DNA from: Asterias amurensis
Lineage: Eukaryota > Echinodermata > Asteroidea > Forcipulatida > Asteriidae
Length of the DNA: 64,000 bases
NCBI RefSeq assembly: GCF_032118995.1
Contig: NC_092650.1
Span: forward strand, 1,612,001-1,676,000
Direction of reading: 5' to 3'
Below the pieces are notes generated by a model. The model was not told where the DNA came from. It searched no databases and worked only from the letters and a program-made list of their open reading frames with translations. Below, piece after piece: positions 276 through 64,000 of the stretch. The first letter of the stretch is position 1. Every line of letters begins with the position of its first letter. The position numbers and the translations under genes are program-made.

Positions 276-3200
276 CTTGTAATAAATGGGGAAAATCTTG
301 GTGGTTTTGTGCTTCGTACATGTGCGGTGATTGGGCAGATGGTTGTAGATACATGGCGTCAATGCCTTGAGCTGGATAAGTCGGCGCATTTTGCATTTCA
401 ACTTCTGCTTGTTTCAGCATAATCTGAAGGACCTCAAGTTGTTCAGACATTTCTATAAATATAAAAAATATAAAAATCATAGTGAGTTTACTCAATAATA
501 ACATTCTTTAAAGCCATAACACACTTTCAGTAAACAGTATTTTCCAAGTCCCACACTTCGTGTATCACAACTTATATATAAAATCACAAACCTGTGAAAA
601 TTTAGGCTCAATCGGTAATCGGAGTAGGGAGAAAATAACGGGAAAACCCATTCTGGTTTCTGGGCGTTTCGCCATGTCATGACATGTGTTTAAAATAAAT
701 CCGTAGGCTAGTTTACACTTTCTCATCCATTCTTCTTAATTAAAAAATACCCTCACTGTGTTACTCACCTATTTGACTTGGTATTTGCTGTTGACTTAGA
801 TCTGGTGGACTCTGAATAGGAATCAAACCATGAGAATTGGTTAACGATTAAATACAGGATTGACAACTTATCCATAAAGGAATTAGCTTCAATTTAACAG
901 CTTGCTGATTAGGAAGTCCATCCTCCAGAGAAATTTCCCTCTGAAAGTTCACTGATTCTAAATTTCATACCAGTACCAATCCTCCAGAGAAACATTTCCA
1001 TCTGAAAGTTCACTGATTCTAAATTTCATACCAGTACCAATCCTCCAGAGAAACAATTCCATCTGAAAGTTCACTGATTCCGAATTTCATATCAGAACCA
1101 ATCCTCCAGAGAAACATTTCCATCTGAAAGTTCACTGATTCTAAATTTCATATTAGAACCAATCCTCCAGAGAAATATTTCCATCTGAAAGTTCACTGAT
1201 TCTAATTTTCATATCAGAACCAATCCTCCAGAGAAACATTTCCATCTGAAAGTTCACTGATTCTAAATTTCATATTAGAACCAATCCTCCAGAGAAATAT
1301 TTCCATCTGAAAGTTCACTGATTCTAAATTTCATATCAGAACCAATCCTCCAGAGAAATATTTCCATCTGAAAGTTCACTGATTCTAAATTTCATATCAG
1401 AACCAATCCTCCAGAGAAACATTTCCATCTGAAAGTTCACTGATTCTAAATTTCATATTAGAACCAATCCTCCAGAGAAATATTTCCATCTGAAAGTTCA
1501 CTGGTTCTAAATTTCATATCAGAACCAATCCTCCAGAGAAATATTTCCATCTGAAAGTTCATTGATTCTAAATTTCATATCAGAACCAATACTCTAGAGA
1601 AATATTTCCATCTGAAAGTTAACTGATTCTAAATTTCATATCAGAACCAATCCTCCAGAGAAATATTTCCATCTAAAGCTCACTGATTCTAAATTTCATA
1701 TCAGAACCAATCCTCCAGAGAAATATTTCCATCTGAAAGTTCACTGATTCTAAATTTCATATCAGAACCAATCCTCTAGAGAAATATTTCCATCTGAAAG
1801 TTAACTGATTCTAAATTTCATATCAGAACCAATCCTCCAGAGAAATATTTCCATCTTAAGCTCACTAATTCTAAATTTCATATCAGAACCAATCCTCCAG
1901 AGAAATATTTCCATCTAAAGCTCACTGATTCTAAATTTCATTTCAGAACCCCTTCGCTTTTCGATTAAGTGCACTGGGTTCTTGTACGTTACACAACACA
2001 CAGGACCAACCGCTTTACGTCCCATCCGAAGGACAAAGTATCATGGTTTTGTGTAGATCTTGCTGTAAGGACGCAGGTGTCACGACTCTCGCACCCACAC
2101 TCTGCTGAACAGAAACACCAGAGCTTGAGTTCGGGCCATTAATACCAGATGTTGTATTCCAAACGATATTACCAACTTACCATGGCTAAGACCATGTCGC
2201 AACAATCGTCATCGTTTTGAACACTGGGAGTTTCAATGATACCTGCTTCCGCCACAGCTGCAATATCTTTAAAGAAATCATCAAATCCAAACAATTTAAA
2301 GATGTTAAATTTGCATCAGGGAAAAAGAATATTCATTTAGTTTTTACCTATATACACCGATGTGTGTTAGCACTGTACACTCAGTACTTACCCGAGCTCT
2401 GTGAATAAAATAACAGGTATATTACCCGCATGGGATTTGAACAAAGGATTCGAACTGCATCTAGCCACAGGGCAATCTCGGTGGTCTAGTTGGTATGACA
2501 CTGCTCTAGAATTGCAAAGGTCGTGGGTTCGAATCCCACCCGAGTAATAAACCTGTGATTTTTTTCACAGAGCTCGGGTACCTACCGAGTATACAGTGCT
2601 AACACACATCGGTGTATACAGGTAAAAACTAAATGAAAATCCAAATAATGTTAAAAATGTGTGATCAACTTTAGGCATCTTCTTTGAAATATGGACCATT
2701 TTACAACCTCAAATGTCATTTTTTTTTAAATTATTTTTGACCTTTTCAGATATTTCAAATAATTCTATACATATTAAGGTTTATTAAAATGTTCATATAA
2801 GGATAGAGCAGTTAATTTTAATTGTGTTGTGATCATTTTAAAAGTGTAGAGTCTGCAGCAGTGAAACCTGTGGTTATATATATTTAAATCAAAACTAGCT
2901 TAAGTAAATCACAAGGAACATTCATTGTTTACTATAATGAGGTCCAACAGATGTACTTTCAAATAAAATCAGTAAAAAATCAACAAAACACCAAACACAG
3001 AAAATATAAGCCTGACAGAGGAGGGCATAAGGTTGACAGAAAAACAAAGCAAATATTGTCTGTAATTTTTTTTTTTCTGGCACAAGACTACTGTAATTTC
3101 GCCGATTATTGCAGCCTCTCATACCTAAAACCTATCAAAAATAAAAACTTTGTCAAGCGTCCACATTTTATTTTTTAGGTAAAAAACGTCAGTTTCGAAC

Positions 3201-4955
3201 GTAATTTTTGACAGATTTTAAGTGATGATCGCCAAAAAATGACAGATTTGCATGACGTTCCAGAAAATAGACAGACTTAATTGCAAAATGACGTTCCAGA
3301 CTTTATTACCTTCGCGCAATCCACATCAAACGTAACTGAACAGAAGTTGATTTAGTTTCCAAAAACTAGCGTTCTGAACAAAGTATTTCCGTTGTAAATC
3401 ATCTGAAAGACGTTTTGGTTTTTCGTCTGGAGCTGTCCGATGGATTGTCGAACGGCAGTAAATGCCGACGTCATTTTCTTGACAGAATTATTTTGCCCGA
3501 GTATAAGATCGCGCAGAAAAACATGTGCTGATCGCGCGTTCTGTAAAAACACTGAGGGTGCCTGACTACAAGCAGGCGTTTGAGGGGGTACGTCTCGTGT
3601 CAAAGGTCAACTTACAGGCCGATCAGAAAATTCATGAACGTCGCGCTGAAGTAAATGACAGACAAGAAAATTACATCGCTGGAGATTTGAAAAACTGATT
3701 ACTCTGATAGTTGACCAGGTATCGCAGCAATCATTGTCACAAAATAACCATTATTTAAACATGTTTTCTTTGTATTTTTTTCGAACTTATTGAATGTGTC
3801 AAAAATTGGTTAACTCACGTGTTTCTTATTGTTGATATTTTTGACGGAAAAAAAAAGACGCACGGAAAATTACCGATATTTATTTATTTATTTTTTTTTA
3901 ATTGTCGGACTTTGATTGTCTTTTGCTGTTAAATTATTTGTCAACATCCCCCACCACCCGCGCATTCAAAAGTTAAATAAATGCCCTGCAAATATGAAGT
4001 TTTGATCATTTAAATACCTCAATTATCCAACAGGTTGTTGAGGTCTGTCAAAAATGCTGATGTCAGGGACTCAAAATCTTCTACCTTGATTTATTTGAAA
4101 GGCCTGGGCTATCAAAATTGTGTATAATATCTTACTAGGTACCTTTTAGTTTATTACAATGTATAAATAAACAAAATAGCTTTCACTTATGAAAATATCA
4201 GGGTCCGAATTTCAGACTTACAAATGGTCCACATAATAAAGAAGATGCCTTTAGCAAGTGACAGTGCTGTAGTTGAATCCCTGTTGTTCGAGTCCTACCA
4301 TCCCAACCAAAATGCTTGGGCCACCCATTCGCAACCTGGCAATTAACATTCCCTGTCCCGCCCCCCCCCCCCCCCGGTCAATGTTGATGGCAGCGCTGAC
4401 CGCGCAATTAAGAGCCAACATAGAAAGGGGGAAGGGGGGATATGGCCGAGATTGTAGTCCTTCATGAATATGTTAAGTTTGTCTTGTCAGTAAGTCGTTG
4501 CGTCACACACGCTCTTATCTGCTGCACGCCCAAAGTGGTCTATTTTTTTTGGCTCTATAGCTGGCATACATTTGTGCATGCTGTGTGTAGTTTTAGAAAA
4601 CTTCACTAATTTCATGGCTCAAAGCATTTCTTACGAAAGAAATATTTAACTAAGTGAGTGAAACATTTAAAAAAAAAAAAAATACATTTTTTTAAATTAT
4701 GAAACTGATTCATGAAGCACCAAGGCCTCTAAAAAGGAAGCGGGCAGGCACGCTAAACATATTTTATTTTTTGTTTGGCCGCACTTACCATTCTGAAAGC
4801 CATATGGCATGTTATCTTCACCAAGCATTGCTAGGAACTGCCCCAGTGCCATACTCTGTTGTGCTTCATCAACAGTCATCACCTCTTGATTAGTCTCCAT
4901 CTTGTATTCAAAAACGACGATCCGTACACCAGGATAAAGGCAACCAAAAGATTAT
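276..4955 (-). CDS. IRF-like gene A, 5' half (tandem paralogue of gene B), runs off left edge
   Basis: Exons read on the minus strand: 4789-4955 (ATG at 4898-4900, preceded by a short 5'UTR and a TTTTAG acceptor), 2181-2266, 769-811, 276-452. Junction phases are 1, 0, 1, and the last visible donor is phase 1, so coding continues beyond base 1. The 418 visible coding bases give about 139 residues: a short acidic start (METNQEVMTVDEAQQ), an acidic patch NDDDCCDMVLAM, a Gln/Pro stretch and SEQLEVLQIMLKQAEVE. No domain is recognisable alone. The assignment rests on gene B, which has the same phase series, an exon of the same length (43 nt) and a matching acidic motif (PDDDFNQMLLAT). The IRF association domain is inferred to lie left of the window. 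The reading frame stays open past the 276 donor to a stop at 196, so intron retention would give a short form. There is no IRF DNA-binding domain before or within these exons. Confidence 0.6.
915..1950. repeat. 61-bp minisatellite, about 17 copies
   Basis: A unit beginning CCTCCAGAGAAATATTTCC recurs every 61 bases (starts near 921, 980, 1041, 1102, 1163 and so on to about 1893). Most units differ by 1-4 bases; the outermost are more diverged. It lies in the intron of gene A between the 43-nt exon and the 2181 exon. Two variants (aaCattt/atCag and aaTattt/atTag) alternate in the first half, suggesting growth by multi-unit duplication. Confidence 0.95.
2336..2640. repeat. tRNA-derived SINE with inverted-duplicated tail (foldback)
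   Basis: The core at 2468-2549 has pol III-type boxes, TGGTCTAGTTGG (A box) and GGTTCGAATCC (B box), closed by CTCGG/CCCGAG pairing. The flanks 2336-2410 and 2561-2636 are inverted copies of each other: both hold CACCGATGTGTGTTAGCACT or its complement. A normal-orientation relative lies at 62878-63055. A tRNA gene was ruled out because the anticodon arm does not fold cleanly. Confidence 0.75.
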
Positions 4956-5045
4956 CTAAAACAAGGAAGATAAACGTTCATTTCAGTTTTTTTAAATGTT
5001 ATCATGACACAAAATCATGACACAAATTCTAGGAACACGAACTTA

Positions 5046-5705
5046 ATCCTCTTCCTTCCTTCCTTCCTGTGAAGTGCAGCCTCGCATATGTGAGGATAAA
5101 TGCACTGCGTGTTTGCGCATGCGTCCAAGAAAAATAAGCAGGACATGCTGTCGAGTGCGGAAATTTTTAGTGTAAACAAGTGCAAGTAAAAACTGTTGGA
5201 TATGGAGAGCTACTTAGATGGATGAGCCTTAAGTGCAAGCTTAAAGGCGTCAAGCGATTTGTACTCCGCTGGATCTACTGCTAGGCTATTCCAGTCCCGG
5301 ATGGTACGTGGGAAGAAGGAGTTAGTAAACACAGTTGATTTGGTGTGAGGGATGACAAAGCGGGATTTGTGACCTCTTGTTGTTGTAGATAGATGGACGA
5401 GGTACTGGTTCCACTCAATGTCAACGAGACCATAACGGATTTTGTACATCATAGCCAGACGACTGCTAGTGCGTCGGTCCTGTACGGATTGCCAGTTTAG
5501 CTCTTGTAGAATAGCAGAGACACTTCTTGTCCTGTCGTAGATCCCTGTGACAAAGCGGGCTGCATTGCGTTGGACTTGTTCCACTTTCTTGGAGTTGCGC
5601 TGTGTGTGGGTGTCCCATACAACACTAGCGTACTCGACTGTTGGTCTTACGAATGTGTTGTATGCAGACTCCTTGATCTTATGACTGTCTAATGGATCCT
5701 TTTAT
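5046..5705 (-). mobile_element. LINE (Jockey/CR1-type) 3' fragment, 5'-truncated
   Basis: On the minus strand an open frame ends with the C-terminal part of a non-LTR reverse transcriptase protein: FVRPTVEYASVVWDTHTQ, EQVQRNAARFVTGIYDR, STTTRGHKSRFVIPHT, SFFPRTIRDWNSLAVDP. It stops at 5210, is followed by a short 3'UTR and ends in a (GGAA)n tail (TTCC repeats at 5053-5068 on the plus strand). Truncation near 5705 is typical of target-primed insertion. It nearly matches 59487-59880. Confidence 0.85.
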
Positions 5706-5957
5706 AACACTCAAAACACAAAAAGGACACAAAACTTACCAGATCCCGAAGTCAAACAGTGACAATCGGCATTTGTAGTGTAGTGGTAAAACGGAGTAGT
5801 TGGGGACTGAATTACGGTAAGAATTTATATTTTTTTTTACAATTTTTGAGATTGCGGAGTGGATTTTCTGTCGCCCCCAGGGTCAATTATGAATTAATGA
5901 GAGTTCAAAGGACAAATGTCAAATACAGCGCCCCAGTTACTGGGGGTCTAAAATTAG

Positions 5958-6092
5958 TTTGGAAAAGTTTCCGTATGGCGCCACCACTTTTTCATTCGAA
6001 ATAAAATAATATAGTATCTAATTTACCTGATTGATATATCCCTTTTTGTAAAAATGAGTGCAAAAGTGGTGGCGCCATACGGAAAGTTATCC
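5958..6092. mobile_element. Short MITE family 6, copy 1
   Basis: About 130 bp with long terminal inverted repeats: AGTTTCCGTATGGCGCCACC and GGTGGCGCCATACGGAAAGT. The AT-rich centre has TTACCTGATTGATATATCCC. A nearly identical copy is at 12094-12227. Confidence 0.85.
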
Positions 6093-7144
6093 ATTAGTTT
6101 TAACAATAACATCATAACAATAAATATGATAAACTAATTTGAAATACAACACCACATGAATGATCACATCCACACTTGAATTTTGAAATGATTTGGATAG
6201 ACAACGGAGTTATACTTATAGATTATATTTATTAACTTACCATTAACTAAAATCCTACTTCTCCAAAGTCCTCGTGAAAAGAGTTTCTGATAAAACAAAT
6301 AATGGTGATGACTTCAGTGTGTTTATCTGTGCACCATCCAATCAAGTTACAATGCACGCCTCTGCCTTTCATTTAGTTACTATTTTTGGGATTTTGGAAT
6401 TCCCAGATTGCATCATTGAACAAAATAATGTTCAATATGTAACATGTAGTTCGATGTAACAATTATGCTTATGTTTGTCAATAAAAACCAGATAAAACAA
6501 CACTTATTTTTCTTAAATATTCTTTGGGATACTATTATCTTTCAATATCTAAAAAACCAATTAAATTTGTATAATGTGATTGTCAATAAATATAAACATG
6601 AACTACATCAAGCCAACACTGTGATAACAACGCCGTTGTTGCTTTTATTTTTAGCAGATGACGACACCAATCATGCGGGGAATACTCAAAACCTTAAAGG
6701 GCGCCCTCAATGCTGTCAAATCAATGCAACAAGGCAGTGTCGTCTGCATTACAAGGGTCAAAACATTTTGTTTAACAGTCAATGATGTATTTTTTCATTA
6801 CGTGTTGTAGTATTATTGTGAAGCCAAATTGAACTCAATAAAGAACGAATTGAATACCAAGTGAATATGTCTCATGAGCGTTTTATTCTTTGGTTCTCGA
6901 CCATCCTGTTATCCCATAATATGTTTCCCAACTTCTAGAGGTCACTCTAATTTGCATAGGTCTCATTTGCATAGCACAGTAAACAATGCGTGTAATGCAT
7001 ACATGCACGTGTAATATCAGGACACTACACGTGTTATATAATGAAGATGATATCGCTGATAATGAAGGTTTTTTATTGTCAACTGAATGGATCAACGGTA
7101 ATTATTGTGATGAATAATCCATACCATTCTGATTATCAAACTAA

Positions 7145-7286
7145 TCCTGAGATGGTTTAAGGAGCGATTTAAGGCCCAGTGACCAGGGGTAATAATGTGA
7201 AGCGCTTTGGGACGCCCTTCGGGTGTAAAAAGCGCTATATAAAAACGGGTTATTATTATTATTATATTATTATTATTATTATTATC
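7145..7286 (+). repeat. Retroposon 3' tail with GCGCTATATAAA...(TTA)n
   Basis: GAAGCGCTTTGGGACGCCC, AAAGCGCTATATAAAAACGG and then a TTA microsatellite is a common tail of invertebrate SINE/LINE elements. A related decayed end lies at 8445-8500. Confidence 0.5.
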
Positions 7287-8504
7287 CTAAACTAATTCAA
7301 TAATTGTGAGAATAATAATAGATAAAACCAATGATAAAAATGTTCAACACAAAATTAAAAATCCTCAAAAAATGCCCTCTCAAATATGAAATTCCAGGCT
7401 TGGAAATTTATTGATATTCCTAAACCGTTGACAAGTTTCCTTATAAATTAGAAAAACAACCTCTGTTATAAATGGGAAAATAAATAAGAAGAACTTGTGC
7501 TAACTTCAGATACATAAAGTTATTAAAAAAATAATGATTTCTCTGATAAACCATTTCAGTAACCTCCTTAAAAGCACTGTACACTTTTTGTAATTGTCAA
7601 GGACCAGTGTTCTCACTTGCTGTATCCCATCATAAGCATAAAATAACAAGCCTGTGAAAAATTGGGCTCAATTGGTCATCCAAGTTGCGAGAAAATGATG
7701 AAAGAAAAAACAACCTTGTTGGACGAATTTTGTGTTTACAGATAAGAATAAAAGTCTTCTAGCTAGAAGTCTTTTAATATTTTAGTGAGAAATTATCTCT
7801 TTCGCAAAAACTACGTTACTTCAGAGAGAGTTGTTTCCCACAATTTTTTATACTATCAACAGCTCTCCAATGCTCGTTACCAAGTCAGTTTTTAAGTTAA
7901 TGTTTGTTTCGAGTAATTACCAAATGTGTACCTTCCCTGTAAAGGAGGGCTGTTTTATGTGTACAATTTTGCATTTTAGCAATTTTGTTATTTACAACAT
8001 GAATTGGAAAATGTTTACTTTTATTTTGCACACAGACATATTACATATTTTGCCGATACACAATACAAGCAGAAGTAAGAAAGAACAATATTTACAATCT
8101 CAAACATGATACACATTGGCATAACCGGATTTGTTTAAAATATTTTTTGTTGTGGGGGGGGGGGGCTATTTAATGTATTGAAACAAATGACTAATTGTAT
8201 TTGTCCATTAAATGCACCATTTTAGATTCCACGCAAACCTGAAAGCATTAATAACAATTTTAAAATATATGGCCTTTCATGCAAGAGAAATCTTTTCTGA
8301 TACTTTTTCTCTACAAGAATTTTTACGAATGATGCTGTTTTAAAAGGGAATATGTACAAAAAGGTTCTTACAATGCACAAAACATTTTGCTCTGCTCTGC
8401 TATAAGGGAAATCGTTCAGCGATTCTATTCTTGTGATGATCACTATAAGAAGCACTTTGAGCGCTTTATAATTTTGTTGTTATTATTTATTATTATTCTA
8501 ATCA

Positions 8505-11500
8505 CTACTGACTTGTAAGACTCTTTGAAATCTGAATTCTGTAATCACTAACTGGAAATGAAATATGCTGGTCGTCATTTCCCCAGCAATGTTGCATCCT
8601 TGCGCGAACAGGATTCACGATCATGGACGCCAAGCAGTAGCTGAGGGCACCCTCATTAGGGTTCCACGGCTGGGCAAATGTGAAATAAATAGCAGGGTTG
8701 ATCGGTGAGATGTGGTTGTTGGGTAGAAGTCCTGCTGGTTCATTTCTAAACGTGGGTTTGTTGACAATGAAGTGCTTTAGCCTTTGCTCGAACATCTCAT
8801 TATCAAAGACCATGACTTCGTTGTTCCTCTCTAGTTTGTACGGAACAAAGTCATCCATTCTCCCTTCAGCGATCGGTCCTTTCTCTGTACTCCACCAGAA
8901 AACTTTACTTTGACAATGTCGGGTCGCATAAACATTTCCCATGTCATCACATCGAAGATACAGGCTGAAAATGACAAGAAAGAAAAATCAAACCCTTTTA
9001 ATTCCATTTGTCAATTCTGGTTGTGAAGCCAAGGACACTCAGAAAAGTGAACTAGCCAAGAACTGTACTAGCCATGAGACCCAACAAAGAGAAGACAAAG
9101 CAGGAAGTTTTAGTTTTAGATGTCGGAGGAGCACCCAAGATAATTGTTCCAGGGGAAACCCATGCAGTCAGCCCAGGTTGGGACTGAAAACCCAATCCAC
9201 ATGGTGCCCTCGGTGGAATCTGAACCGGGTCCTGGAGGTAAAAGGCGAGGAAAGTTGTACAAAGTCAGATCTACCTACCCATTTTCTAGAGCTTTCAGAA
9301 TTTGGATGGTGAACTTGAACTGAACATCTGTCATTCTTTTCTTCACATTGACTGCAATGCCTGGGAACTCCACTCTTGTAGGCACAGCCTCTCCCGAGTC
9401 AAACAGCGAAGGTTTATTATGGTAGACGAGGCAGCCATTTGGGTTCTTGACATGTTCTCTGACCACCTCTTGAGAACGATAGCGTAGCCGAATCAGCAGC
9501 TCCTTTCTTGAAAGTTGTTCAAGTGTCAGTGCCGGTGTATTTTCTCTTGATGCATTCCTTGTTTCTGGAGAATTCAGAGCCACCTCAGCGGTATTGCCTG
9601 TTGAAGAAGTTGGTAGCAGCAGCGAGTCTTTCCTAAGGGATCCCTGATTGGTAAAACTCGGCTCAGGAACAATCCCTGAAATCATTGCAAACGGATTCCC
9701 AACTGGAACTGTTGGAGCAATATCTTGAGAAAAAAATAGATAACAAGAACAGTTTCACAATCTTGAACAATCAAAATGTGCGCAAGTGTGCGCACAACGC
9801 ACATGTTTTAGCGAGTGAAAGGTCTTTTTTTAGGCTTTTGATGTCATATGCTAGGGGTATGTTTAAAATAGTTAGACAAACAACACTGTAATGTTTGTTT
9901 TAAAAACCTTACCATAGCTATCAGAAGGTGATAGTAGAGCATTGTCCAACCATAGACTTGTACCAGTCTCCATCGGCGATTCATTCTGATTGACCTGTCC
10001 AAAGACATCATTGATGAAGTCTAGATCTAGTGTGGAAAAAACAGAGACTATTTCAAGTTTATCTTAAATCTTGTACCATTGAGAAACAAGAGTGTTGAAT
10101 TGTTGACATGTTGACATTATGGTATCACACTGGAAACAACAATATTTCTTTATTGTCAAATTCACAGTATTTTGGACTAAGTCCAGGGGCCAATTTCATA
10201 GAGCTGCTTAAGCAAAACAAAACATGCTAAGCACAACAAAATTATGCTCACCAGGATAAGGTTACCAGCCAAACTACCATGTCACATGTACCATTTGTGA
10301 TTGGTATCCACTCATCTCTGCTTAGCGGAGATGTGTTTTTAAGCAGTTCAATGAAATTGGGCCCAGGGCTCATCCACAATGGTATGAGACATGGGTCTAG
10401 GAATCGGACTCGTTCCCAACTAACTCAAAGTTTTACTAAAAGACATCAGACTCGACCTTTATGACTCCGACTTCACACTTATTTAATTTATCCCCCAAAC
10501 AAATTTCTCAGAATATCATGCTAAACACATAACTTCAATGCTTATTCTTAATTTGAGAGTAATCAAAATATTTCCATGCAAGTTGATACCGAGAAGTATA
10601 TTCACCGACCTAGCATTGGTAGCGTCTGTTCTTGCCCATTCTCGTTAGGAATCTGTCCAAAGAAAATACAAAAAAATGAATGGCCTGATGACCCCGGCAC
10701 GGGCTTCCTTGAAGACAATGACAATTAAATTATACCTGTTCATGTTGGTTGTATTTCTTTAGCCTTCAAGAAAGACTCTGCTAGGGTTGAAACCTCAGGC
10801 CAAACCATTTTTTGTTGCATTTATAACAAAGGTCCTTTTGGTTGGTAAGCAGTTTGCAACAACTAATCAAGTGTTTCACATTTTCGAGAGTTTCCCGAAA
10901 CACAATTACAACAACAAAAAATGTTAGCTTTCAAAAAGATTTGATCTTACCGTAGCCAAAAGCATCTGGTTAAAATCATCATCAGGGACACCATAGGAGG
11001 ATGAAAGTCCCACTGGTTCTTCAAAAGGCAATTTGAAGAAAAAAAGAAAATTAAACTGGGGTGCAAGTTAAGGGCAAGGCAAGTGCAACGACTGATTATA
11101 ATAAAACAGCAATGTAGCTGCTCAGCATTGCATCACATTTTGAAGTTAAAGTTAAAAGCTCCATCGAGCTAACTGTGTTTTACTCATTTAAAAAATACAG
11201 CACCTCAGCAATTCATATTTTTGATGGAAGCTTTTTACCATCATTATCTTCAAATCGTGTAAGTTTAAAGTGTAAATGTGTGGATATTGGATTTTGTGTC
11301 CTACAAAAAATAAACAGAGTTCTGTGAAGAAAAAAAAATTACACAGGCAAATGACTTGGGTGGGATTCGAACCAAAATGTCTTGGCTTACCTTCTATGCT
11401 CCTCATAGGAGGCAACCCAAGGTCATCCAGCATCTCATGTTGCTTGTCGAGCAAACCTTGAAGAGAGTTCGTTGCTAGACTAGTTGGAAACATGTTCACT

Positions 11501-11532
11501 GGGAAAATGTTCACCCTTGCAGGCACTGAAGG
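8505..11532 (-). CDS. IRF-like protein B with C-terminal IRF association domain, no DNA-binding domain seen
   Basis: Exons 11391-11532, 10951-11018, 10610-10652, 9913-10020, 9279-9723, 8505-8964 join with phases 1, 0, 1, 1, 2 and end at TAG (8505-8507). The best start is the ATG at 11491-11493; upstream in-frame codons in that exon are probably 5'UTR. The product is about 420 residues. The N-terminal 115 or so are acidic and low in complexity. The last 250 match the IRF association domain (IAD): LLIRLRYRSQEVV opens it, then NPNGCLVYH, then VYATRHCQSKVFWW and KLERNNEVMVFD, which line up with the IRF4/IRF8-type pattern VYATRLCRSKVFW...KLER...FD. The IAD mediates partner binding among IRFs and is related to the Smad MH2 fold. 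The five-tryptophan IRF DNA-binding domain is not seen up to cyclin E. If real, the protein could act only through partners. An unseen upstream exon carrying the domain remains possible. Confidence 0.8.
10186..10367. mobile_element. Palindromic MITE family 1 (GGGCCCAATTTCAT ends)
   Basis: Arms GGCCAATTTCATAGAGCTGC ... AGCAGTTCAATGAAATTGGG. The body has CAGGATAAGGTTACCAGCC and GTACCATTTGTGATTGGT. This is the most abundant repeat in the window. Other copies, some partial: 1-118, 18985-19228, 32681-32928, 34860-35058, 36529-36670, 38281-38405, 40147-40400, 42378-42670, 43029-43232, 53626-53839, 63844-64000. Confidence 0.85.
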
Positions 11533-21300: not shown

Positions 21301-24300
21301 GTTGTGATCCGTAGACCTGAAGAAACACGTGTAGAGAAGGTGTAGGGAAATGTCAGTTTTAGACGTGGGAGGATAACCCCAAGTTATAGGGAAACCCATG
21401 CAATCTGGTAAGACTAACACTTGTGAGGCGACAGACTGAATCCACATGCAAGGCTCAAGTCCAATGTTGGATTCAAACCAGGTTATTGAGATTGTAAAAG
21501 CAATTAAATTTTTTGTGTCAGGCCCTAATTACAAGAGACACCCTAGCAGAGAAAACTTACTTCTAGTTTAGCTGCAATGAACAACGCCGTAATCCCGATC
21601 AGCTGCAGTTGACTCTTTGGTAAATTGTTTACTTTTGCGAGATATCTATCGATGAAGTCTGTCGCTAAGTAGAATGTCTCTCGGTGTAACCGGTAAACCT
21701 CACAGACCTGATGAGAAAAAAACAATCAATCGGTCAATAAGTTATTGTTCAATTGAAAGTGTCTTGTTATGACCCCTTGTTGCTAAAATGCCACTCGAAC
21801 TTGCTCCAAGATTATTGTGATGATGATGACATCAAGTGAATTGGGCAAGCACAATACATTTTTGCAGCATATTTTTTCCATGACTTAAAAGTTTGAATGA
21901 TCTTTAAGACAGAATTGTTACCCAAGACATCTCTCTACTCACTTCAATTAACCAGTCTAGAAGAATTGCCCTCATTCGTTTCTCAAGGCTCGGATGGCTG
22001 TCCAAGCACCTTGTATCGTGAACATAGTTGGATTCTTTCTCAAGCATGATTCTCCATACTTCCTTTGAATCTGCCCAGTTCAACATCGGCAAGGGAGACC
22101 TCCTGTCGGCAAGGGGAGTAGGGAAGAGGTTCTTGAAGCGGAACTTTGAGCCGGATTCTAAGAGCTGTTCGGAAGGGGTCGTCGGCTCTTGGTGTGGTGT
22201 GGGGACGAGGGAAGACGTTTCAAAACCACCTGACTCCGAAATTGGAACCCAACAGTTCTGTCAAAGAATAAGATTTAGTTTTAAGTTTAAGAATTAAGAA
22301 TTGAGAAAGCCTTAAAACAAATTTGAAAGAATTCATCTTAATGTTGCCACTGAAAGTTTCACTTTTCTTATAAGTCCTAATAATATTGAATATTTCTAGT
22401 GCGCCATGTCTGTCAAGGACGACACTCTTGGCGCAAACACTCTGCTATACAAAAAGACAACCAAAGGCTACATGTAGTTTGATCTCCAAAAGAGATCGAT
22501 TTTGAGATGCATTTAAAATTGAGAACAAGTGAAAAAACAAAACAAAAAACTTGACTCTTGTAGAGTTCTTGGAGTTCAGATTATCTTGAAAACAAAAATT
22601 TTTTGCTACAAGTACGAAACTGCTACTCTCATCACATAGTCAAAATTGCTGAAGTTATAGGCAAGGCCAAACAATTTTTTTTAAAAACACATCTGAAGCC
22701 CCCTTTTTGTAAACAGCAATGGTCAAATTGTCACAAAAGAATCGCACAAAACTTCCACATGAATGCATGTCATCTATCGTAGGCATGTTCTATCATGTCC
22801 CTGTGAACATTGAACTTTCAAAAACCTTTGGTAAACACAGTAACAACATACGACTATTTCCTGCAGTTACACGTCTCCATGTTTACTCAGTAAGCTGTAA
22901 ACATAAAGGCAACTACAATCTCCCACATAGGGTGGGCCTGTAAAAAGCACTTGTGTTGGCATTGTGTTATTAACAATACAGGTAAAGTTCAACTAAGAAA
23001 TGTGTGGTTATGTCACTGAATAATTAATGCATACCCAAAGCAAAGTAGATTAAAGACTTGGTTTTTACTTAAGATGGGAGGGGGTGTAAGAAACAGCCCA
23101 TTTGACATGTTGGTCCCTTAAATGAGGAAAATTGAATTTCAGATGTCATTTAGAGTGTCAAGAGGATGATGAGTGTTTTTTTTTATGTTGTACTTCTTTA
23201 TTCCATCAAATTTTTAATAATTTGTTTTTCAGCTAAACACCTTATTTTAAAACCCTTTAGAGACCATTTAATTTCTGTAAAATCATCACAAAATGCCCAG
23301 CCATATAAAATATTGTTCATTGTTGTTTTAAAATCAAATTTTGTCAGTAAAAATGTCAAGAGAAATAACATGAAACCAAAAGATTAAGTATGTTTGTGTT
23401 AAGAATTTATTGTTTTTTAACTAAAAATATAATTATTTAAAAACAAATCCTAAAAAAAAAAACATTTCCAAGTGACTGTTTTTGTTGTAAAGCAGTACAA
23501 AAATAATAATTGGGCATAAAATTTGTTGTTTGTTTGAATAGTTCAATTGGATTTGTACATATACATTTGTATGACTAAACAAATTTAGAAGGTGTTTTTT
23601 TCGCTCTTAATGGGGCTAGTGAAATACTTTTAATTAAAAAAAAATAAAAAATTAAATATCATTTTTTTTAAATCACGAAATTCAATTTGAAGACATCACA
23701 AATTTAAACTTTCAAAGACAATTTTTGTTCAAATTTTGCTTCAAGATTTTTTAGAAATTTGCAAATGATTTATTTAAATGATATGGAATAGTTCCATTAA
23801 ATTTCATTTAGTTTCGTATTTATCATAATTCTTTACAATTTTGCCAAAAATAAAAAGTACACAAACAGTCGAGAGCAGGCGATCCCAACCAACCCGCGAA
23901 ATGATCTGGGACCCCCTCAACAAAACGCAGCTGGCAAAATCCCACACACACCACCAATCAACTGAAAATCACACTAAAAAAGGCATGAAAACTCACTTGA
24001 ATTTGAAACTGTTGCCTTCTTCTTTGGATTTCTGCAGAATGTAGCTCTTCATCCTGTAAGAAAATTATAGAAATTTAGTGACAAATGGCGGGAATGTTTG
24101 GGGGTGAACTTAGACTTAGATAGAGTGACCTTAGAATTTTCACAAAGACCCATGATCCCCGGGAAATCAATAAAGCCCCCTCCACTGGTCCACGTAAAAA
24201 TTCCGATGGAAGTTTGTGTACAAAACCATACAAAACATACCGGCGTATTTCCACACACATCAACTGATCAACTGCACTGGTGTCGAACCCAGAAATTAAC

Positions 24301-26674: not shown

Positions 26675-29600
26675 ATGGCAAAGAATGCGTTGAGCATGTT
26701 CTGTCAGCTGTTTGGCCGAAACAACAGTGCCATTGTCGGAATGATACATGTCAAAGCTCTACCAGGTAGGTACATAAAAAGCAAAACAAAAGTAGGCATG
26801 AAATAACTCTGAATTTCGTTGTTATAGTGTGGTTAAATTTAATCAAAATGTTAAAAAGGAAGTAGGTGAATTCTATAAACCCAAACAAACTCTCATGATT
26901 CATAGGTGAACCCTAACCCAAACTGAACTCGTACCCATTTGAGGGCGCTAAGGCATTTTCTTCTTGGTAAAGGTCATCCTGCGAGGAAATTGTAAATTTC
27001 TTTTTGAGCATTTCATTTTCTAGGGCACCAAGGCAATGACAAGGGGGCATGTTGCCTCTGTGAAGTATCAGGCCTGAGTTTCTCTGGTTTATAAGAGTTT
27101 TACTTTTATGAATGATTTGTTTTCCTTAAAGGAACGTTACAGAATTAGTAAGAAACTAAAATCGTGAAGATCACAGATTTACATAAAACTTACATGTTGT
27201 AATGATGATGATAGTAGAAAACATCCCTTAAAATATTTCTGTCTGAAATTTCACATTTTATGAGAAAAAAATAATATAATTTCGCGTTTGGAGTTTATCG
27301 CTCAGTGGGCGTTTTGTTCATTTTTGTATAGGCATCGATTCAATGCAAAATTTGTAATATATTCTCTCGTGACCCAGATAGCCTATCGATCTTAATATTC
27401 TACAGGTTTGTCAGTTCATGTGTCTATTGGATTACATAAAGTGCTTTACACTGCCAAAAACTTTTTTGCTAGCAAAACCAACTCTGTAATGTTCCTTTAA
27501 ACCCAGGCAGTCCGAGGAATACTCTTGCCATGAGGGATATTATTCAGAGAGCTTGTAAAGAGGCAGAAGGCTACAAAGATTCAGGTGTGGTATGTATGAG
27601 TTCATTAAGGCTTTGTTTTATTCTTCAAAATTCTCATTTTGCAAATTTAATTCCTTTGCAAACTTGTGTCAACAAGATCCTCTTTTGTGTTGAATTTGTG
27701 TTCTCTCCTATGAAACTTGTTTGCACAAAATATTGGGTTTTTAACGCTAACATAAAGAATTTAAAGACAGTGGACACTATTGGTAATTGTCTAAGACCAG
27801 CCTTCTCACTTGGTGTATCTTAACATATGCATAAAATAACAAACCTGTGAAAATTTGAGCTCAACCGGTCATGAAAGAAAAAACACCCTTGACACATGAA
27901 GTTGTATGCTTTCAAATGCTTGATTTCGAGACCGCAAATTCTAAACTTGAGGTCTCAAAATAAAATTCGTGGAAAATTACTTTTTTTTCTCGAAAACTAA
28001 GTCACTGCAGAGGGAGCGAGTTCTCACAATGTTTTTTACTATCAACCCTCTCCCCATTACTCGTTACCAAGTAAGATTTTATGCTAACAATTATTTTGAG
28101 TAAATACCAATAGTGTCCACTGCCTTTAAACAATCATGTTAAAGTCGGTTTCTAGCAAAATAATTTCAAGTTTTATTCAGTAAGTTTGCTGGATTTCACA
28201 AAGCACTTTAGCTTTCGATTATATTTTTTTTAATCGACTGTTATCATCATTGTAATGGTCTGCGTGCATTAACATTTGTAACACCCAAACTTCTCATGTG
28301 CTTTCCATAGGATTCTATTATGATAGAAAACATGCACGACGTCCCCTATCTTCCAGCTGAGCGTATGGGGACAGAAATCACAGCGAGTATGACAGCAGTA
28401 GCTTGCAAAGTCCGAGAGATATGTCCGAGCATTCCTTGTGGTGTTCAGATCTTGTCTGGTGGTAACAAGGAAGCATTATCAGTAGCACAAGCAGCAGGTT
28501 GGTTGAATCTCTATATCCTATCACTCTTGATTCAATCAGGGTTCTCGCACAATCTTGCGTGTTGGGCCGATTTGCGCGAATTTCGGGCCGATATGCGCGC
28601 TTTTCGGCCAGTACACAAAAAAAGAAAAATCATCAAGATAAATAACGGTCTTGAATGCAGCACAGTAGGGCATTAAAAAAAACAAAAAACATTACAAAGA
28701 CTTAGTTTCAATTCAGCATTCTTTGGCCATACTTCCATAATTTGGGTTCAGAATTGCTCCCCCCCCCAGTTTCACTATGGAACAAACTCCCCACCTCCCC
28801 CCCCCCCCCAAATCTCTGACAAGTCACTACTTATAAATACCAGCTTCAAATCTCATTTGAACTTATCTTGTGCTTCAATCTATGTAACTCATTGTAGGAC
28901 TACTTGCTTCTGTATCTCTCTTGCGCCAGGAGTGTCTTTTAGCCAGACATGGCGCATTATAAATGGCCACTGTTCTCATTATTTATTTATCCCTTAGGAT
29001 TTGATTTCATCAGGGCTGAAGGTTTTGTCTTTGCCCATGTTGGTGATGAGGGTCTGATGAACTCCTGTGCTGGAGATCTGTTGAGATACAGGAAACAAAT
29101 CGGAGCTGACAATATCAAGATCTTCACAGACATCAAGAAAAAGCATTGGTGTGTAGATTTCAATTTTTAAAGGTACTGGACACTATTGGTAATTACTCAA
29201 AATTATAATTAGCATAAAACCTTACTTGGTAACGAGTAATGGAGAGCTGTTGATAGTGTAAAACATTGTGAAAACTGCTCCCTCTGAAGTAACGTAGTTT
29301 TCGAGAAAGATGTAATTTTTCACGAATTTGATTTCGAGACGTCAGATTTAGATTTTGATGTCTCAAAATCAAGCATCTGAAAGCACACAACTTCTATGAC
29401 AAGGGTGTTTTTTTCTTCCATTATTATCTCAAAACTTTGATGACCGATTGAGCTCACATTTTCACATTCTCACATTTTTATTTTATGCATATGTTGAGGT
29501 ACACCAAGTGAGAAGACTGGTCTTTGACAATTACCAATAGTGTCCGATGTCTTTAATCTATAAGTCTTAGGGCCATGTCACACGACGAGGCAATTCACAG

Positions 29601-30701
29601 GCAACCAGTTCCAGGCAATCTTCAAGAAGAGAATCCATTCACATTTGAATGATCTCATAATTTTCTAGGGGATTGTAAGTTATGGTTACTTGTGTTACTT
29701 GTGTGCTACAGAAGTGGTCCTGAAGCATGCACTGCAGTTCATGTTCTCTCATCTGTAGCTGTTTCACTGTTTTCTTGTCTCCTTTTCTGGGCTTTGAATC
29801 CTTGAAGGGAAATATCCCTTTGGTTTTTGGAATGGTTAAATTGTTTGAATCCTACATCAATGTAGATTCTAACAATAAAAATAACCTGCGAAAATGTCAT
29901 TTCAAATGTTGCATTTTTCAGATATTGCCGAAAATCTAGAGTTATTATGTCCATGCAGGAAGAATAATGCGTTAATGGAATACACAATCTTAGAGACGCT
30001 AACAATCAGTAATGCTTATCAGATTCAAATTTTGGGGGATGAGGCAAATCAATCGAGGTGGATTTGGAACCCACCTTTGCATTGCTAGAGCAGACTTGAT
30101 GTTACCAAGGGACTTTCTCCTGAACTCTCTAACTAGTTCATGTAGTAAGAGGTTTAGGCCAGATATTCTCATTGTTCTTTCCGATTGTTTGACAGCTCCC
30201 ACGCCATCACGTCAGACGTTAGTATTGCAGACACTGCAGAGGCTGCTGAATTCTTTGGCAGTGATGGAGTCATTGTAACAGGGAGTGCAACAGGAAAAGC
30301 TGCCAGTCAACAAGAAATCTCTGGTTAGTTTAATCCTTCTGCGTAAATCGTGTTTCCACAGTAAATTCTCCCAAACATTCAGTTTTTACATCATTTTAAG
30401 ATTGTCTGCAGCCATCAAAGATTTTCAGCAAAGATTTTGACCCAGTTGAAGTGAACTCAACATCGTTAATGTGTAACTTGCAATTCAATTCATTCCAGAT
30501 GTCCAGAAATCAGTGAGCATACCCGTCTTGGTCGGGTCAGGAGTTACCACGGACAATGTTCAGCACTACCTCGCTGCAAACGCCCTCATTGTTGGGTCTC
30601 ACTTCAAGGAAAACAACCTATGGCACTTTGACCCTGACTTTGGTAAAGTGCAACGGTTCATGGACAAGGTGAAACATCTACGAGACGGCGGGACAACGTA
30701 A
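26675..30701 (+). CDS. BtpA family protein (TIM-barrel, F13E9.13-like)
   Basis: Six coding exons 26675-26765, 27507-27589, 28311-28497, 28998-29148, 30196-30323, 30499-30701 join in phases 1, 0, 1, 2, 1 to 280 aa plus TAA. The opening SAIVGMIHVKALPGSPRN is the BtpA signature (GMIHxxxLPGSP). Further family landmarks are DSIMIENMHDVPY, AERMGTEITASM, GVQILSGGNKEALSVA, FIRAEGFVFAHVGDEG, IFTDIKKKH, DGVIVTGSATG and PVLVGSGVTTDNV, the last resembling the phosphate-binding loops of (beta/alpha)8 barrels. BtpA was named in cyanobacteria for photosystem I biogenesis. Animals keep homologues of unclear function, so I give no reaction. Length matches the family. The gene is divergent from cyclin E. A MITE ends 6 bases before exon 2, and the 28497 donor (GTTGGT) is weak. 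A likely noncoding first exon ends at the GTAAAA donor after 25803. Confidence 0.93.
26941..27077 (-). repeat. Dispersed repeat family 9, inverted copy
   Basis: Read on the minus strand it has AGGCCTGATACTTCACAGAG and CTTGGTGCCCTAGAAAATG. It lies in BtpA intron 1, just before the family 10 MITE. Confidence 0.7.
27125..27501. mobile_element. MITE family 10 abutting BtpA exon 2
   Basis: Termini TTAAAGGAACGTTACAGA and TCTGTAATGTTCCTTTAAA are complementary. The body shares ACAGATTTACATAAAACTTAC and GATGATAGTAGAAA with 15366-15670. The right end lies 5-6 bases before the exon that starts at 27507. Confidence 0.75.
27761..28130. mobile_element. MITE family 5, copy 1 (BtpA gene intron 2)
   Basis: Terminal inverted repeats TTAAAGACAGTGGACACTAT and ATAGTGTCCACTGCCTTTAA. 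The body includes ACAAACCTGTGAAAATTTGA and TCGTTACCAAGTAAGATTTT. Same family, opposite orientation, at 29167-29555. Partial relatives at 505-660 and 7568-7900. Confidence 0.85.
29167..29555. mobile_element. MITE family 5, copy 2 (BtpA gene intron 4)
   Basis: Starts TTAAAGGTACTGGACACTAT and ends ATAGTGTCCGATGTCTTTAA, inverted relative to 27761-28130. It begins about 20 bases after the exon 4 donor. Confidence 0.85.
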
Positions 30702-39515: not shown

Positions 39516-41983
39516 TTAACATTGCTTGTAGACGACACCAGAATGTCTGCCGGCAACATTCTGACGATAGTGACGCTTGCCTGAGCGACTCTGCTGGTGG
39601 TATGCCTTGTTATGACGCTCGACCTTTGACCTACTTAGTGATCCCTTCTTTGTACGTTCCATAACCTCTGCCTCTTGGATGGCAGCCAAGTTCGGCGGGT
39701 TTTCCAAACCAACGCGAGCTGCCACTGCAGCTGCGCGGCGGGGTGGCTGCGTGTTGCGCACACGCAGATTACGTGACTTGGATTTCTTCACGATCTGATC
39801 AGTGTTTTGTTCGTGCTGACGCATTCTTCTTGATCTCATCGCCATGCCACTGCGTGGTCCATAAACAGACATACTAGGGTGTTCAATAAGGAGGTTCTCC
39901 ATGGGACTGGTGGCAAGTTGATGCGGGGAGCTACCCCCGGCGGTGAAGCACGGAGGAGGGGTAACAAGCCAACTCTCCTCCATGTGATGTTGGCGGTTAG
40001 GAATCCCAAGGGGTTGGGTACCAGACTGGACATCATTCAATGGTGACTCCCTGCTCCGTTTGGGGCTATCTAATCATACAAAAATAACAAGAACAAAATA
40101 CTACTAAAGTGTTGACGAAATTTGATCAATGTTTATTTGGGAAACTGGGCCCAATTTCATGGCTCTGCTAACTGCCAAATTCGGCGCTTACAATCACCAT
40201 TCTCTGCTTGCACGACAAGCGCTGAATTTCTGCTCCAGATGTGTAAGCATAGAATGCTGATTTACATACGTGGGGTATGCACGCGCATAAGGCAAAATCC
40301 CCCACTAACACGTGATATATGTTTGACGTAAGCACAGAATTCCCTGCTTCCGCAAGCCCAATTCTTTGCTTATGATAAGCAGAGCCATGAAACTGGGCCC
40401 AGGTTGGCTCTGTGGTTTCTACACCATGCCTTTCACCTCTGTGGACCCCAGTTTGAATTCTGCCTCTTATCGTAGCCTTGATTGTGTTTCAGTCCCTACC
40501 TGATTGTGTGGGTTTCCCCTATTTAGCTTTCCTCCCACATCTGAAACTGAACATTTCTTTATTATCATCTGCATAACTCATCCTGCACATAATATTGTAT
40601 TGTAATGTACTTTAATAAGACCATTCCTTGATTTCACCTTCAACCATCTTCATGTGCCTTTGATCAAAATAAAAATGTAGATCTTTCACTGTACAAATAT
40701 ATCATATAAAAAGTCACACCATTTATCCTTGCTTAATTAGGGTCATCATAATCAGCTGATCATAAATAATTCATTGAGCCTGTTAATTTAGTCAATCCGA
40801 TTATGTCTCCTTTTTAATATTAAACATTAGCGGCTACAAACGAAGGTGAAATAGCGTTGTGCAATAACCGACCCGCTGCATTATCCACCATTACTCATGC
40901 ATCAAATGATTCAATTGGTAATAATCACATGCACGAGTAGTGAGACTAGGACTAAGTGGAGACCCATGCGGTGAGCGTATAGGTGGTTAAATTAAAAATG
41001 GACTACAGTCAGCGCTCTATGGGCATCATGGGTAGTCATTGACCTTCTTAGCATATTTTCTAATCAATATGGAGGGAGAGTAGTTTCAATATCCATTCAT
41101 AACGAGTTTTTTAGCTTTAGTTGCAGGCTGTTATTTGGGGGAAAAATTAAAATGTTGAAATGCTACATATTGACTTGAATATTTGTCATTACCCATTGTA
41201 TGAGAGACAATCTTTTCCATATTCATAATGAGTTTTTATGTAACCCTTTGAGGTAGCTCTACTTGCAGGCTGTTCACTGATGGAAAAGATTGTCTTAGAC
41301 AATGGGTACTGAAAAATCTTAAAGGTAATTCAGACATTTTCAGTTTGCCTTCAAATTTCTAATGTCTATCTCTTTACATTATGATTATAAATATAATTGT
41401 CATGAGTTAATTTGTACAGTGGGAGAGCCGATGAGGTATGCTGTGATGGATCTAGAACCCTACCTTAAGGAGGCAGGCTCTATAAACGAAGCGGGCAGGG
41501 ACGCTAAACATGTTTGTGTTCTATTTTGGCCTAAGGGTTTGGCAGGGTGGGGAAAGGCATGGAATTTTATACCAGTACAGGCAACGCAGCAAAATTTTGA
41601 TCACTTCCAAAAGAATATCAAAATGATGAGAGAAAATAATTCAAGGGGCACCAAGGCCAGGCATAAGGGTGCCCGATCCTGGAATAACTCAGGGTCTGTA
41701 TCATTAAGAGCATTAGGTAAGATAACCTACTGGTGACATCGACAAGTACCCAGTCGTCATCAGCGTAGGTGAGCTGCATACTAGAGCTCGGTCTAGAGCC
41801 CTGCTCGCCATCCTCAGATGCTGATGGGTCTTCAGCACTGGCAGCACTGCCGAAGATGTACTCTGCCAGTCCGCTGAGCATACTCATGATGTTTCTAAAC
41901 TGAAGTGGAGCTTAGAGACGGGACAGAGAGTCTCGGAAGCTGAGATGGATGAGACTGGGGGTGAACTCGAGGTGCACGGTCAA
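39516..41983 (-). CDS. TP53INP: Tumour protein p53-inducible nuclear protein (TP53INP1/2 homologue)
   Basis: Two coding exons: 41731-41983 (ATG at 41885-41887, the rest 5'UTR after a CTTCCAG acceptor) and 39516-40069, joined in phase 1, giving about 235 aa, close to human TP53INP1 (240). The first exon carries DDDWVLVDV, the acidic LC3-interacting (LIR) motif of the family. The second carries EESWLVTPPPCFTAGG and SPMENLLIEHPSMSVYG, nearly identical to the vertebrate proteins, followed by a long basic C-terminal region rich in Arg, Lys and His (GKRHYRQNVAGRHSGVV) matching the conserved tail. Vertebrate members shuttle from nucleus to autophagosomes, bind ATG8 proteins and respond to stress and p53. 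One ancestral gene probably corresponds to the vertebrate pair. The 5' noncoding exon and promoter lie upstream at an unknown distance. The 3'UTR probably runs well below 39515. Confidence 0.92.
40147..40400. mobile_element. MITE family 1 copy just upstream of TP53INP exon 2
   Basis: GGGCCCAATTTCATGGCTCTGC ends mirrored by GCAGAGCCATGAAACTGGGCCC. The inner arms carry GCGCTTAC / GTAAGCACAG. This subfamily (ATGGCTCTGC) recurs at 63844-64000. Confidence 0.85.
40405..40570. repeat. Dispersed retroposon-like repeat, three copies
   Basis: GTGTGGGTTTCCCCTATTTAG and TTTCCTCCCACATCTGAAACTG recur, inverted, at 21335-21490 (AGACGTGGGAGGATAACCCC, GGGAAACCCATGCAATC) and 9100-9250 (GATGTCGGAGGAGCACCC, GGGGAAACCCATGCAGTC). 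No pol III boxes or tail were recognised. Confidence 0.45.
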
Positions 41984-63000: not shown

Positions 63001-63738
63001 ACAGATTTTGGGGAAAGTACTGTGTGTACAGTGCTTAATACACATTGGTGAAAGGGTAAAACAAAATTATATTCTTGATCCCCCATACAAAACTAACATA
63101 CATTTGGGTTTTAGTACAAGTTATTTTGGGGGTTATCTTGTCCATGAGTCCATATGAAATAAAAACTACTACAACTGTTTTTACTGTTCCTGTAATTTTC
63201 AGTGCGGATCGTGTGTACCGATGTCCAAGGGCAGTCTCCACCATACTGTGCGTGCACGAGCCAGAGTGTGACCCGCCAAACTGCAATAATCATGGAGAAT
63301 GTGTTATGGGTGAATGTCATTGCCATGGTAACTGGGCAACTCCTCGTTGTGACAAGCTAGAGTGTGGCTTGTTGAACTGCAGCAATAACGGTTTATGTAC
63401 AGAAGGTAAGGCTGATGCTTCATATGAACTTGTAGCATACTTAGTCGGTGATCATATCTCATTAGAGATAGTCATTACATGGTGTTACCGCAACCCTTTC
63501 CATATCAAATTTCCACCATGCAAAGTTTCAAATCCTACCATCTTGATCCTCACATTTACAGATGGGTGCAAGTGCAATAAAGGTTTCATGCCACCAGACT
63601 GTTTTCAGCCGTGTGATCAAGGCACCTTTGGACAGGACTGCCTGACACCATGTCCGTGTGAACATGGCGGGGACTGTGACCCCATCACAGGGAAATGCGA
63701 ATGTCTTCCGGGATATGCAGGCAAGCACTGTCAGCTGA
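60055..63738 (+). CDS. NAGPA: N-acetylglucosamine-1-phosphodiester alpha-N-acetylglucosaminidase (uncovering enzyme), partial
   Basis: Exons 60055-60537, 61483-61622, 61827-61935, 62484-62612, 63203-63405, 63562-63738 join with phases 2, 1, 2, 2, 1. The first enters in phase 2 and the last leaves in phase 1, so at least one exon lies upstream and more lie right of the window. The catalytic phosphodiester glycosidase domain is clear: ATNAGFFNTHTGDCYGNVVS, QNAHFGIRANGSLVFGYLSE, VVNAINLDGGGSATYVINGT. EGF-type cysteine repeats follow: ECDPPNCNNHGECVMGECHC, DCFQPCDQGTFGQDC and CDPITGKCECLPGYAGKHC. In vertebrates this Golgi enzyme removes GlcNAc from GlcNAc-phospho-mannose to expose mannose-6-phosphate on lysosomal hydrolases. 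The signal peptide exon was not found between 57800 and 60054. The transmembrane and tail exons are expected beyond 64000. Confidence 0.93.
60591..60738. mobile_element. Foldback MITE family 8, copy 1
   Basis: Inverted arms GATGGGAGACTTTTGGGATG / GTTCCAAAATCTCCCAT and GGTGGCAGCAGACTTAC / GTAAGTCTGCTGCCACC. It begins some 50 bases after a NAGPA donor. Relatives at 30851-30996 and, partial, 44975-45050. Confidence 0.8.
60765..60968 (+). repeat. tRNA-derived SINE, Leu/Ser-like head
   Basis: A box TGGTTGAGTGGC (60781) and B box GGTTCGAGTCC (60834-60844) are spaced as in a class II tRNA. They are followed by a body with CCTTGAGCAAGATACTCT and GATGGGACATTAAGCC, a body type seen in several deuterostome SINEs. 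It lies in a NAGPA intron. Confidence 0.65.
61041..61378. mobile_element. Family 7 element, copy 2
   Basis: Same ends and body as 51411-51691. It is longer because of an A-rich then T-rich expansion near 61100-61160. It lies in a NAGPA intron. Confidence 0.8.
62027..62203 (+). repeat. Dispersed repeat family 9, second full copy
   Basis: Matches 34312-34488 over its whole length: CAGGCCTGATACTTCACAG, TGCTCCAGTAGAAATTTAC, AGCATACAGGCCTG. It lies in a NAGPA intron. Confidence 0.8.
62650..62798. mobile_element. MITE family 3 copy in a NAGPA intron
   Basis: GGGTCGATTTCACAAAGAGT ... AACTCTTTATGAAATCCACCC with the inner arms TTGGGACTAGTCCTA and GATAAGACTAGTCCTAAC. It starts about 40 bases after an exon donor. 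Confidence 0.85.
62878..63056 (+). repeat. tRNA-derived SINE, same family as 2336-2640
   Basis: Shares ACTGCCTCTAGCCACA, a decayed A box (GGTGGACTGGTGGTAGAC), the B box GGTTCGAATCAC and the tail TACAGTGCTTAATACACATT with the 2336-2640 element, with a single tail only. It sits in the NAGPA intron before the EGF exons. Confidence 0.7.
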
Positions 63739-63843
63739 GTAAGTTCAATTTGGGTTATCTGACCACAAGTTTTCATTTTTTAGTTTGTTTTTTTTGTTCA
63801 CAAAAGTTGTGTCATGGTTGCACTATCTGGTGTTTAAGTTTTT

Positions 63844-64000
63844 GGCCCAATTTCATGGCTCTGCTTAGCGCTGAATTTCTGCTCTAGCTATGTAAGCGTA
63901 GAATGCATAGTAAAAGCCAAAATTCCACACTAAGCTGTGAAATACGCTTGACGTAAACACAGAACTCCCTGCTTCCGCAAGCGCTGATTCTTTGCTTATG
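63844..64000. mobile_element. MITE family 1 copy, cut by the window edge
   Basis: GGCCCAATTTCATGGCTCTGC start, then GCGCTGAATTTCTGCTC and TGTGAAATACGCTTGACG. It is the same subfamily as 40147-40400; its right arm lies beyond the window. Confidence 0.75.

Follow-up and report, generated by a model that had tools for sequence, protein, structure and literature searches.

The 64-kb window described here, positions 1612001-1676000 of contig C3 (28.59 Mb) in the 23-contig, 491.5-Mb genome of the sea star Asterias amurensis, contains no ambiguous N bases and carries on its minus strand two neighbouring genes, A and B, related to the interferon regulatory factors (IRFs). IRFs have an N-terminal winged-helix DNA-binding domain (DBD, PF00605) with five tryptophans; the IRF association domain (IAD) considered here is IAD1 (PF10401). 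Our gene models, read from the sequence together with NCBI protein models, place a C-terminal IAD1 in both genes, and neither yielded the N-terminal DBD. The first-pass annotation of this stretch had proposed such a tandem IRF-like pair without a DBD, and the proposal holds: both frames are intact, and no DBD was found in a scan of the window or, in a genome search, 5' of the genes.

Gene structures and domain content

Gene B comprises six exons with AG/GT borders that join into a single open frame of 410 aa as modelled, of which residues 70-410 (341 aa) are identical to an A. amurensis protein that NCBI lists as "interferon regulatory factor 6-like isoform X2" (P0001). Its IAD is as clear as first described: the frame of the last exon matched PF10401 at E 9e-9, above the cut-off, and the identical P0001 did so at E 1.1e-20, while the exon 5 frame scored E 3.9e-5 (23.9 bits, below the cut-off of 27). 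The IAD sequence also matched solved structures of IRF5 (3dsh, E 5.2e-8) and IRF4 (5bvi, E 3.2e-4).

Gene A has seven exons forming a 459-aa open frame, four of them within the window and three in the adjoining C3 sequence. The suggestion that it begins at an ATG of its own is corroborated by an Asterias rubens model (P0002, 459 aa), which starts at the same METNQEV and is identical at 432 of 459 positions; an in-frame TAA lies ahead of the ATG, provided that the acceptor at 4956/4955 is used. The IAD of gene A, which lay outside the view of the first-pass annotation, was found in exons 5-7, beyond the window edge, by a genome-wide PF10401 search and completion of the frame. In one intron of gene A a 61-base unit is repeated 17 times in tandem (94% matches, window 920-1950), and between the two genes lies a 163-aa minus-strand frame (window 5210-5701) that resembles a reverse-transcriptase fragment by eye and has no Pfam match.

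Using a profile of six IRF DBDs against all 2165 stop-to-stop segments of at least 20 aa in the six frames of the window, we found no DBD match; the best segment, at 30215-30385, reached E 0.48 (7.6 bits). As controls, four pieces of 30 residues were cut from the held-out IRF3 and IRF7 DBDs (positions 1-30 and 31-60 of each), and all of them reached E values between 1.5e-8 and 8.5e-5. The proteins P0001-P0004, from four sea-star species, matched PF10401, whereas PF00605 matched none of them with the threshold relaxed to E <= 10. Nor do the N-termini contain a tryptophan cluster, with one tryptophan in residues 1-178 of gene B and none in residues 1-225 of the A. rubens protein or 1-207 of that of Patiria.

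IRF genes across the genome

A genome-wide PF00605 search (E <= 0.001; six candidates, all six scored) returned four exon matches, which make up two DBD genes with both exons of each. One, at C21:5.219-5.228 Mb, is closest to IRF1/IRF2 and 8hcm (IRF1-type); the other, on the minus strand at C3:1200406-1201514, is closest to IRF4 (IRF4-type) and lies about 0.4 Mb 3' of genes A and B. Since A and B begin near 1.6169 and 1.6235 Mb on C3 and are read downwards on the minus strand, any 5' exon of theirs would need higher C3 coordinates; the DBD at 1.20 Mb is therefore on their 3' side and cannot supply a 5' exon to either gene. The earlier argument that no single missed exon explains the pair is thereby strengthened, because an upstream DBD exon is contradicted genome-wide, at the threshold of this search and with splicing inferred from the sequence and NCBI models.

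PF10401 gave ten matches genome-wide at E <= 1, eight of which fall in four genes, all on the C3 minus strand (Table 1). A further match on C4 (20.9 bits) was not counted as an IAD, since the domain is an MH2 of the Smad type and fits the MH2 profile at E 3.8e-41; its recovery indicates that the search was sensitive, as its reach extended to this related domain. A match on C7 (17.3 bits, below the cut-off, in a 64-aa frame judged by eye only) was also set aside. From their order, strand and phase, the DBD at C3:1.2004-1.2015 Mb and the IAD at 1.1918-1.1932 Mb appear to belong to one IRF4-type gene. About 11 kb 3' of that IAD lies gene C, a divergent IAD gene for which no DBD of its own was found. 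Like the IRF4-type gene, it has one intron ahead of the IAD (phase 1) and another within it (phase 2), and a possible upstream exon at about C3:1184666-1184814 would end in phase 1; gene C could share the IRF4-type DBD through alternative splicing.

Table 1 Exons of genes A and B and the other IAD genes on C3 (window positions unless prefixed C3:)
Feature	Position	Strand	Remarks
Gene B coding exon 1	11391..11493	-	ATG 11491-11493; donor phase 1; acidic, no IRF DBD
Gene B exon 2	10951..11018	-	ends in phase 0; contains DDDFNQMLLA, like DDDCCDMVLA of gene A exon 2
Gene B exon 3	10610..10652	-	43 nt, same length as gene A exon 3; ends in phase 1
Gene B exon 4	9913..10026	-	DLDFINDVFG; NCBI protein P0001 begins two codons ahead of this exon
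Gene B exon 5	9279..9723	-	linker and first half of IAD; ends in phase 2
Gene B exon 6	8505..8964	-	second half of IAD and stop codon
Gene A coding exon 1	4789..4900	-	ATG 4898-4900, where the 459-aa A. rubens protein also begins; ends in phase 1
Gene A exon 2	2181..2266	-	ends in phase 0; matches A. rubens P0002; contains DDDCCDMVLA
Gene A exon 3	769..811	-	43 nt; ends in phase 1
Gene A exon 4	276..452	-	ends in phase 1
Gene A exons 5-7	C3:1610963-1611220, C3:1609975-1610203, C3:1608886-1609360	-	outside window; carry IAD (PF10401); complete the 459-aa frame
IRF4-type gene, IAD	C3:1191823-1193163	-	PF10401
Gene C, IAD	C3:1179435-1180707	-	PF10401

Relatives and sequence constraint

Relatives without a DBD are predicted in A. 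rubens, Patiria miniata and Acanthaster planci, and thus in the orders Forcipulatida and Valvatida; NCBI already lists gene B and these relatives, as IRF5/6-like or uncharacterised proteins. The A. rubens and Patiria proteins are the stronger cases, because the Acanthaster model (P0004, 333 aa) is possibly incomplete at its N-terminus and P0001 starts inside gene B. Our protein searches repeatedly gave one set of four sea-star clusters; they depend on shared exact 5-mers, likewise did not return vertebrate IRFs, and are no proof of absence in other groups.

In an IAD tree of nine sequences (those of IRF4 and IRF5 being partial, from solved structures), the seven sea-star IADs stood apart from IRF4 and IRF5 (96.7/99), and genes A and B formed a clade with their valvatid relatives (97.7/88). 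Grouping of gene A with the valvatid proteins to the exclusion of B was weakly supported (49.4/46), so the tree does not fix the split of B relative to that between the sea-star orders; support for the placement of gene C was 23/48. Over 228 codons, the IADs of A and B differ by a nonsynonymous proportion (pN) of 0.244 and a synonymous proportion (pS) of 0.748, the latter saturated. The gene A IAD is identical to that of A. rubens at 228 of 234 positions, and the Patiria IAD is 71% identical to that of P0002 and 60% to that of P0001. Judged from these comparisons, the IADs of both genes are under purifying selection, and A and B do not look like pseudogenes, given that IAD pN is far below pS and that the domain is conserved across species and orders.

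Probable origin from an IRF4-type gene

Intron phases point to the ancestry of the pair. Those of gene A run 1,0,1,1,1,2, and those of gene B 1,0,1,1,2, with one phase-1 intron fewer. As tabulated in an earlier survey, the IRF-like-2 genes of sea urchin (2,0,1,0,1,0,1,1,1,2) and acorn worm (2,0,0,1,0,1,1,1,2) both end in the six phases of gene A, and the other rows for these animals (two IRF-like-1 genes, which are related to IRF1/2, and one fragment) do not (PMC2885996, Table 1). Human IRF4, IRF5, IRF8 and IRF9 have a common 1,0,1,1,1 after the first intron and a final phase of 0 (PMC2885996). Agreement by chance would be expected in 0.1-0.5% of cases for one fixed pattern, uncorrected for the choice among table rows. 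We infer that IRF-like-2 is the IRF4-type gene of sea urchin and acorn worm. Because the phases of gene A equal the last six of these two ambulacrarian genes, the probable ancestor of A and B is an IRF4-type gene whose DBD exons were lost.

In the IRF4-type gene of the same genome, the phase is 0 within the DBD and 2 within the IAD, while the intron after the DBD and the three acceptors that follow in our model are all in phase 1. Between its DBD and IAD exons it encodes DLDMINDV, suggestively similar to DLDFINDV in gene B exon 4. Between A and B, exon 2 is alike at a score that only 2 of 500 shuffles reached. In the history we propose, the 3' part of an IRF4-type gene would have been duplicated on the one chromosome, its DBD exons being lost and a new start exon standing in their place, and a tandem duplication would afterwards have given rise to genes A and B.

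Proposed function and alternatives

The N-terminal regions of these proteins are acidic: Asp/Glu outnumber Lys/Arg by 22 to 1 in gene A (residues 1-139), 24 to 6 in gene B (1-175), 36 to 6 in A. rubens (1-225) and 31 to 2 in Patiria (1-205). Being acidic, with few basic residues and no Trp cluster, the N-termini of A and B are unlikely to bind DNA. The proteins could not then bind an IRF site; their IAD would dock on the usual IAD partners (a full-length IRF4-type protein, its cofactors or upstream adaptors), the acidic region would remain free, and A and B would set in trans the output of the single IAD protein that has a DBD.

For IRF5 it is reported that an autoinhibitory C-terminal conformation is released when S425, S427 and S430 are phosphorylated and that phosphorylation of S436 stabilises the dimer (PMC6563445). 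At the corresponding alignment columns, to which these residue numbers were assigned by their spacing, gene B has S, P, D and S and gene A has S, D, N and S, so that two of the four serines are kept in each; the four sea-star proteins extend just 6-20 residues beyond the last IAD motif (QIS). With its serines partly lost and its C-terminal tail short, the IRF5-type phospho-switch is not found in either gene, which suggests that their IADs are neither autoinhibited nor switched in the IRF5 manner.

Taken together, we put at roughly 55% the probability that genes A and B are a conserved DBD-less tandem pair of the IRF4 branch, derived from the 3' part of an IRF4-type gene, whose IAD acts in trans on IRF partners. 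A number of observations count against this interpretation. The first-pass annotation had gene B open with an acidic, non-IRF exon; the acidity and the lack of a DBD stand, and the start at the ATG of that exon is uncertain, as NCBI isoform X2 begins at M70. Exons 1, 3 and 4 of A and B are not significantly alike (shuffle fractions 0.90, 0.45 and 0.37), and their whole N-termini are alike only weakly (0.034). Our model of the IRF4-type gene lacks the donor of the DLDMINDV exon as well as two short linker exons that escaped detection, and the DLDMINDV match alone is not significant (gene B, E 3.1-3.6; Patiria, E 0.20). Two attempts at structure prediction with four sequences were unusable (mean predicted local distance difference test score, pLDDT, 30.1 and 31.3), so that fold and interface rest on sequence. 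Loss of the tail could also abolish IRF5-style dimerisation.

What the pair would do to its partners can be read in two ways. By analogy, we slightly favour a built-in antagonist acting by titration or competition over a DNA-binding-free coactivator, in which an acidic activation region, held at a DNA-bound partner by the IAD, would raise transcription instead of blocking it. The latter, the main rival, we regard as less likely: it accords with the acidic N-termini in A, B, A. rubens and Patiria and with the exon 2 motif common to A and B, but acidity by itself does not demonstrate activation, and N-terminal sequence is poorly conserved between the two genes. Much less probable is that A and B are ordinary IRF4-type factors whose DBD lies in a diverged or distant upstream exon. 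The frame of gene B exon 1 does stay open 5' of the ATG as far as 11532, and candidate acceptors end at 11526 and 11533; however, the 64-kb window gave no signal despite sensitive controls, the genome search that caught both exons of both DBD genes caught no DBD exon on the 5' side of A or B at E <= 0.001, a cyclin gene transcribed in the same direction stands 5' of gene B at 21.5-22.3 kb, and protein models without a DBD are known from three further sea-star species. Although 5'-truncated duplicates are often pseudogenes, it is highly improbable that the pair represents partial duplicates dying out, in view of the open frames with AG/GT borders, the IAD constraint described above, the near-identity of the gene A IAD between two Asterias species and the presence of relatives in both Forcipulatida and Valvatida.

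Promoter motifs were counted in the 1.5 kb 5' of each ATG, on both strands, with palindromes counted twice. Motifs like the interferon-stimulated response element (ISRE) were absent upstream of both genes; upstream of B a single kB-like site gave two strand hits, where the window density predicts about 0.1, and upstream of A there were none; and motifs like the gamma-activated site (GAS) gave four hits (two sites) upstream of B and two (one site) upstream of A, where about 1.1 would be expected. These counts are too few, and the motifs too short, to be of use.

Comparison with known regulators

Genes A and B resemble the IRF4-branch IRFs (vertebrate IRF4, IRF5 and kin) in an IAD with YATRxCxSK(V/I)FW and KLER motifs and in exon phases that, 3' of the DBD, are those of the two ambulacrarian genes; they differ in the acidic N-terminus with no DBD found, and the four sea-star proteins in their short tail. 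Inhibitory Smads (Smad6/7) likewise form an interaction-only branch of a family, keeping the interaction domain MH2, a relative of the IAD, but having no functional DNA-binding domain. They belong to another family, however, and P0001-P0004 fit PF10401 (E 1.1e-20 to 7.5e-23) far better than MH2 (E 6.9e-4 to 6.9e-6). A further likeness is to the viral IRF homologues that lack a DBD, some of which are reported to inhibit by dimerising with true host IRFs (PMC6255967). Unlike these, A and B lie on a chromosome of the host, contain introns and are conserved across sea stars. If they are working regulators, they would be a host counterpart of the DBD-less viral IRFs and a case of innate-immune control evolving by domain loss.

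Genes that keep only the partner-binding domain can escape notice where IRFs are identified by their DBD, which we take to be the domain entry IPR001346. In the published surveys consulted, IRFs "can be identified based on" the DBD (PMC2885996), one IRF domain, IPR001346, was required in Aplysia (PMC9334734), and all mollusc IRFs found carry a DBD (PMC3308963). Because IRFs are identified there by the DBD, such surveys would not list IAD-only genes, and we found no description of DBD-less host IRF genes in the open-licence literature. It is tempting, if tentative, to view A, B and C as a dedicated host-encoded DBD-less IRF subfamily of sea stars, missed by DBD-led surveys, which would outnumber the one DBD-bearing IAD protein and form a permanent trans-regulatory layer on that single IRF4-type factor. 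Carrying a single IAD gene with a DBD and up to three that lack one, this sea star, from a group hit by sea-star wasting disease (PMC10210618), offers a simple setting in which to probe the role of the IAD without DNA binding.

Neighbouring genes

The cyclin gene 5' of gene B, presumably cyclin E-like, is represented by two minus-strand exons with a cyclin N-terminal domain (window 21543-22260). Exons of other, ordinary neighbour genes matched the BtpA family (28311-28676, plus), the DOR family (39516-40073, minus) and NAGPA with EGF-like repeats (62311-62616 and 63060-63887, plus).

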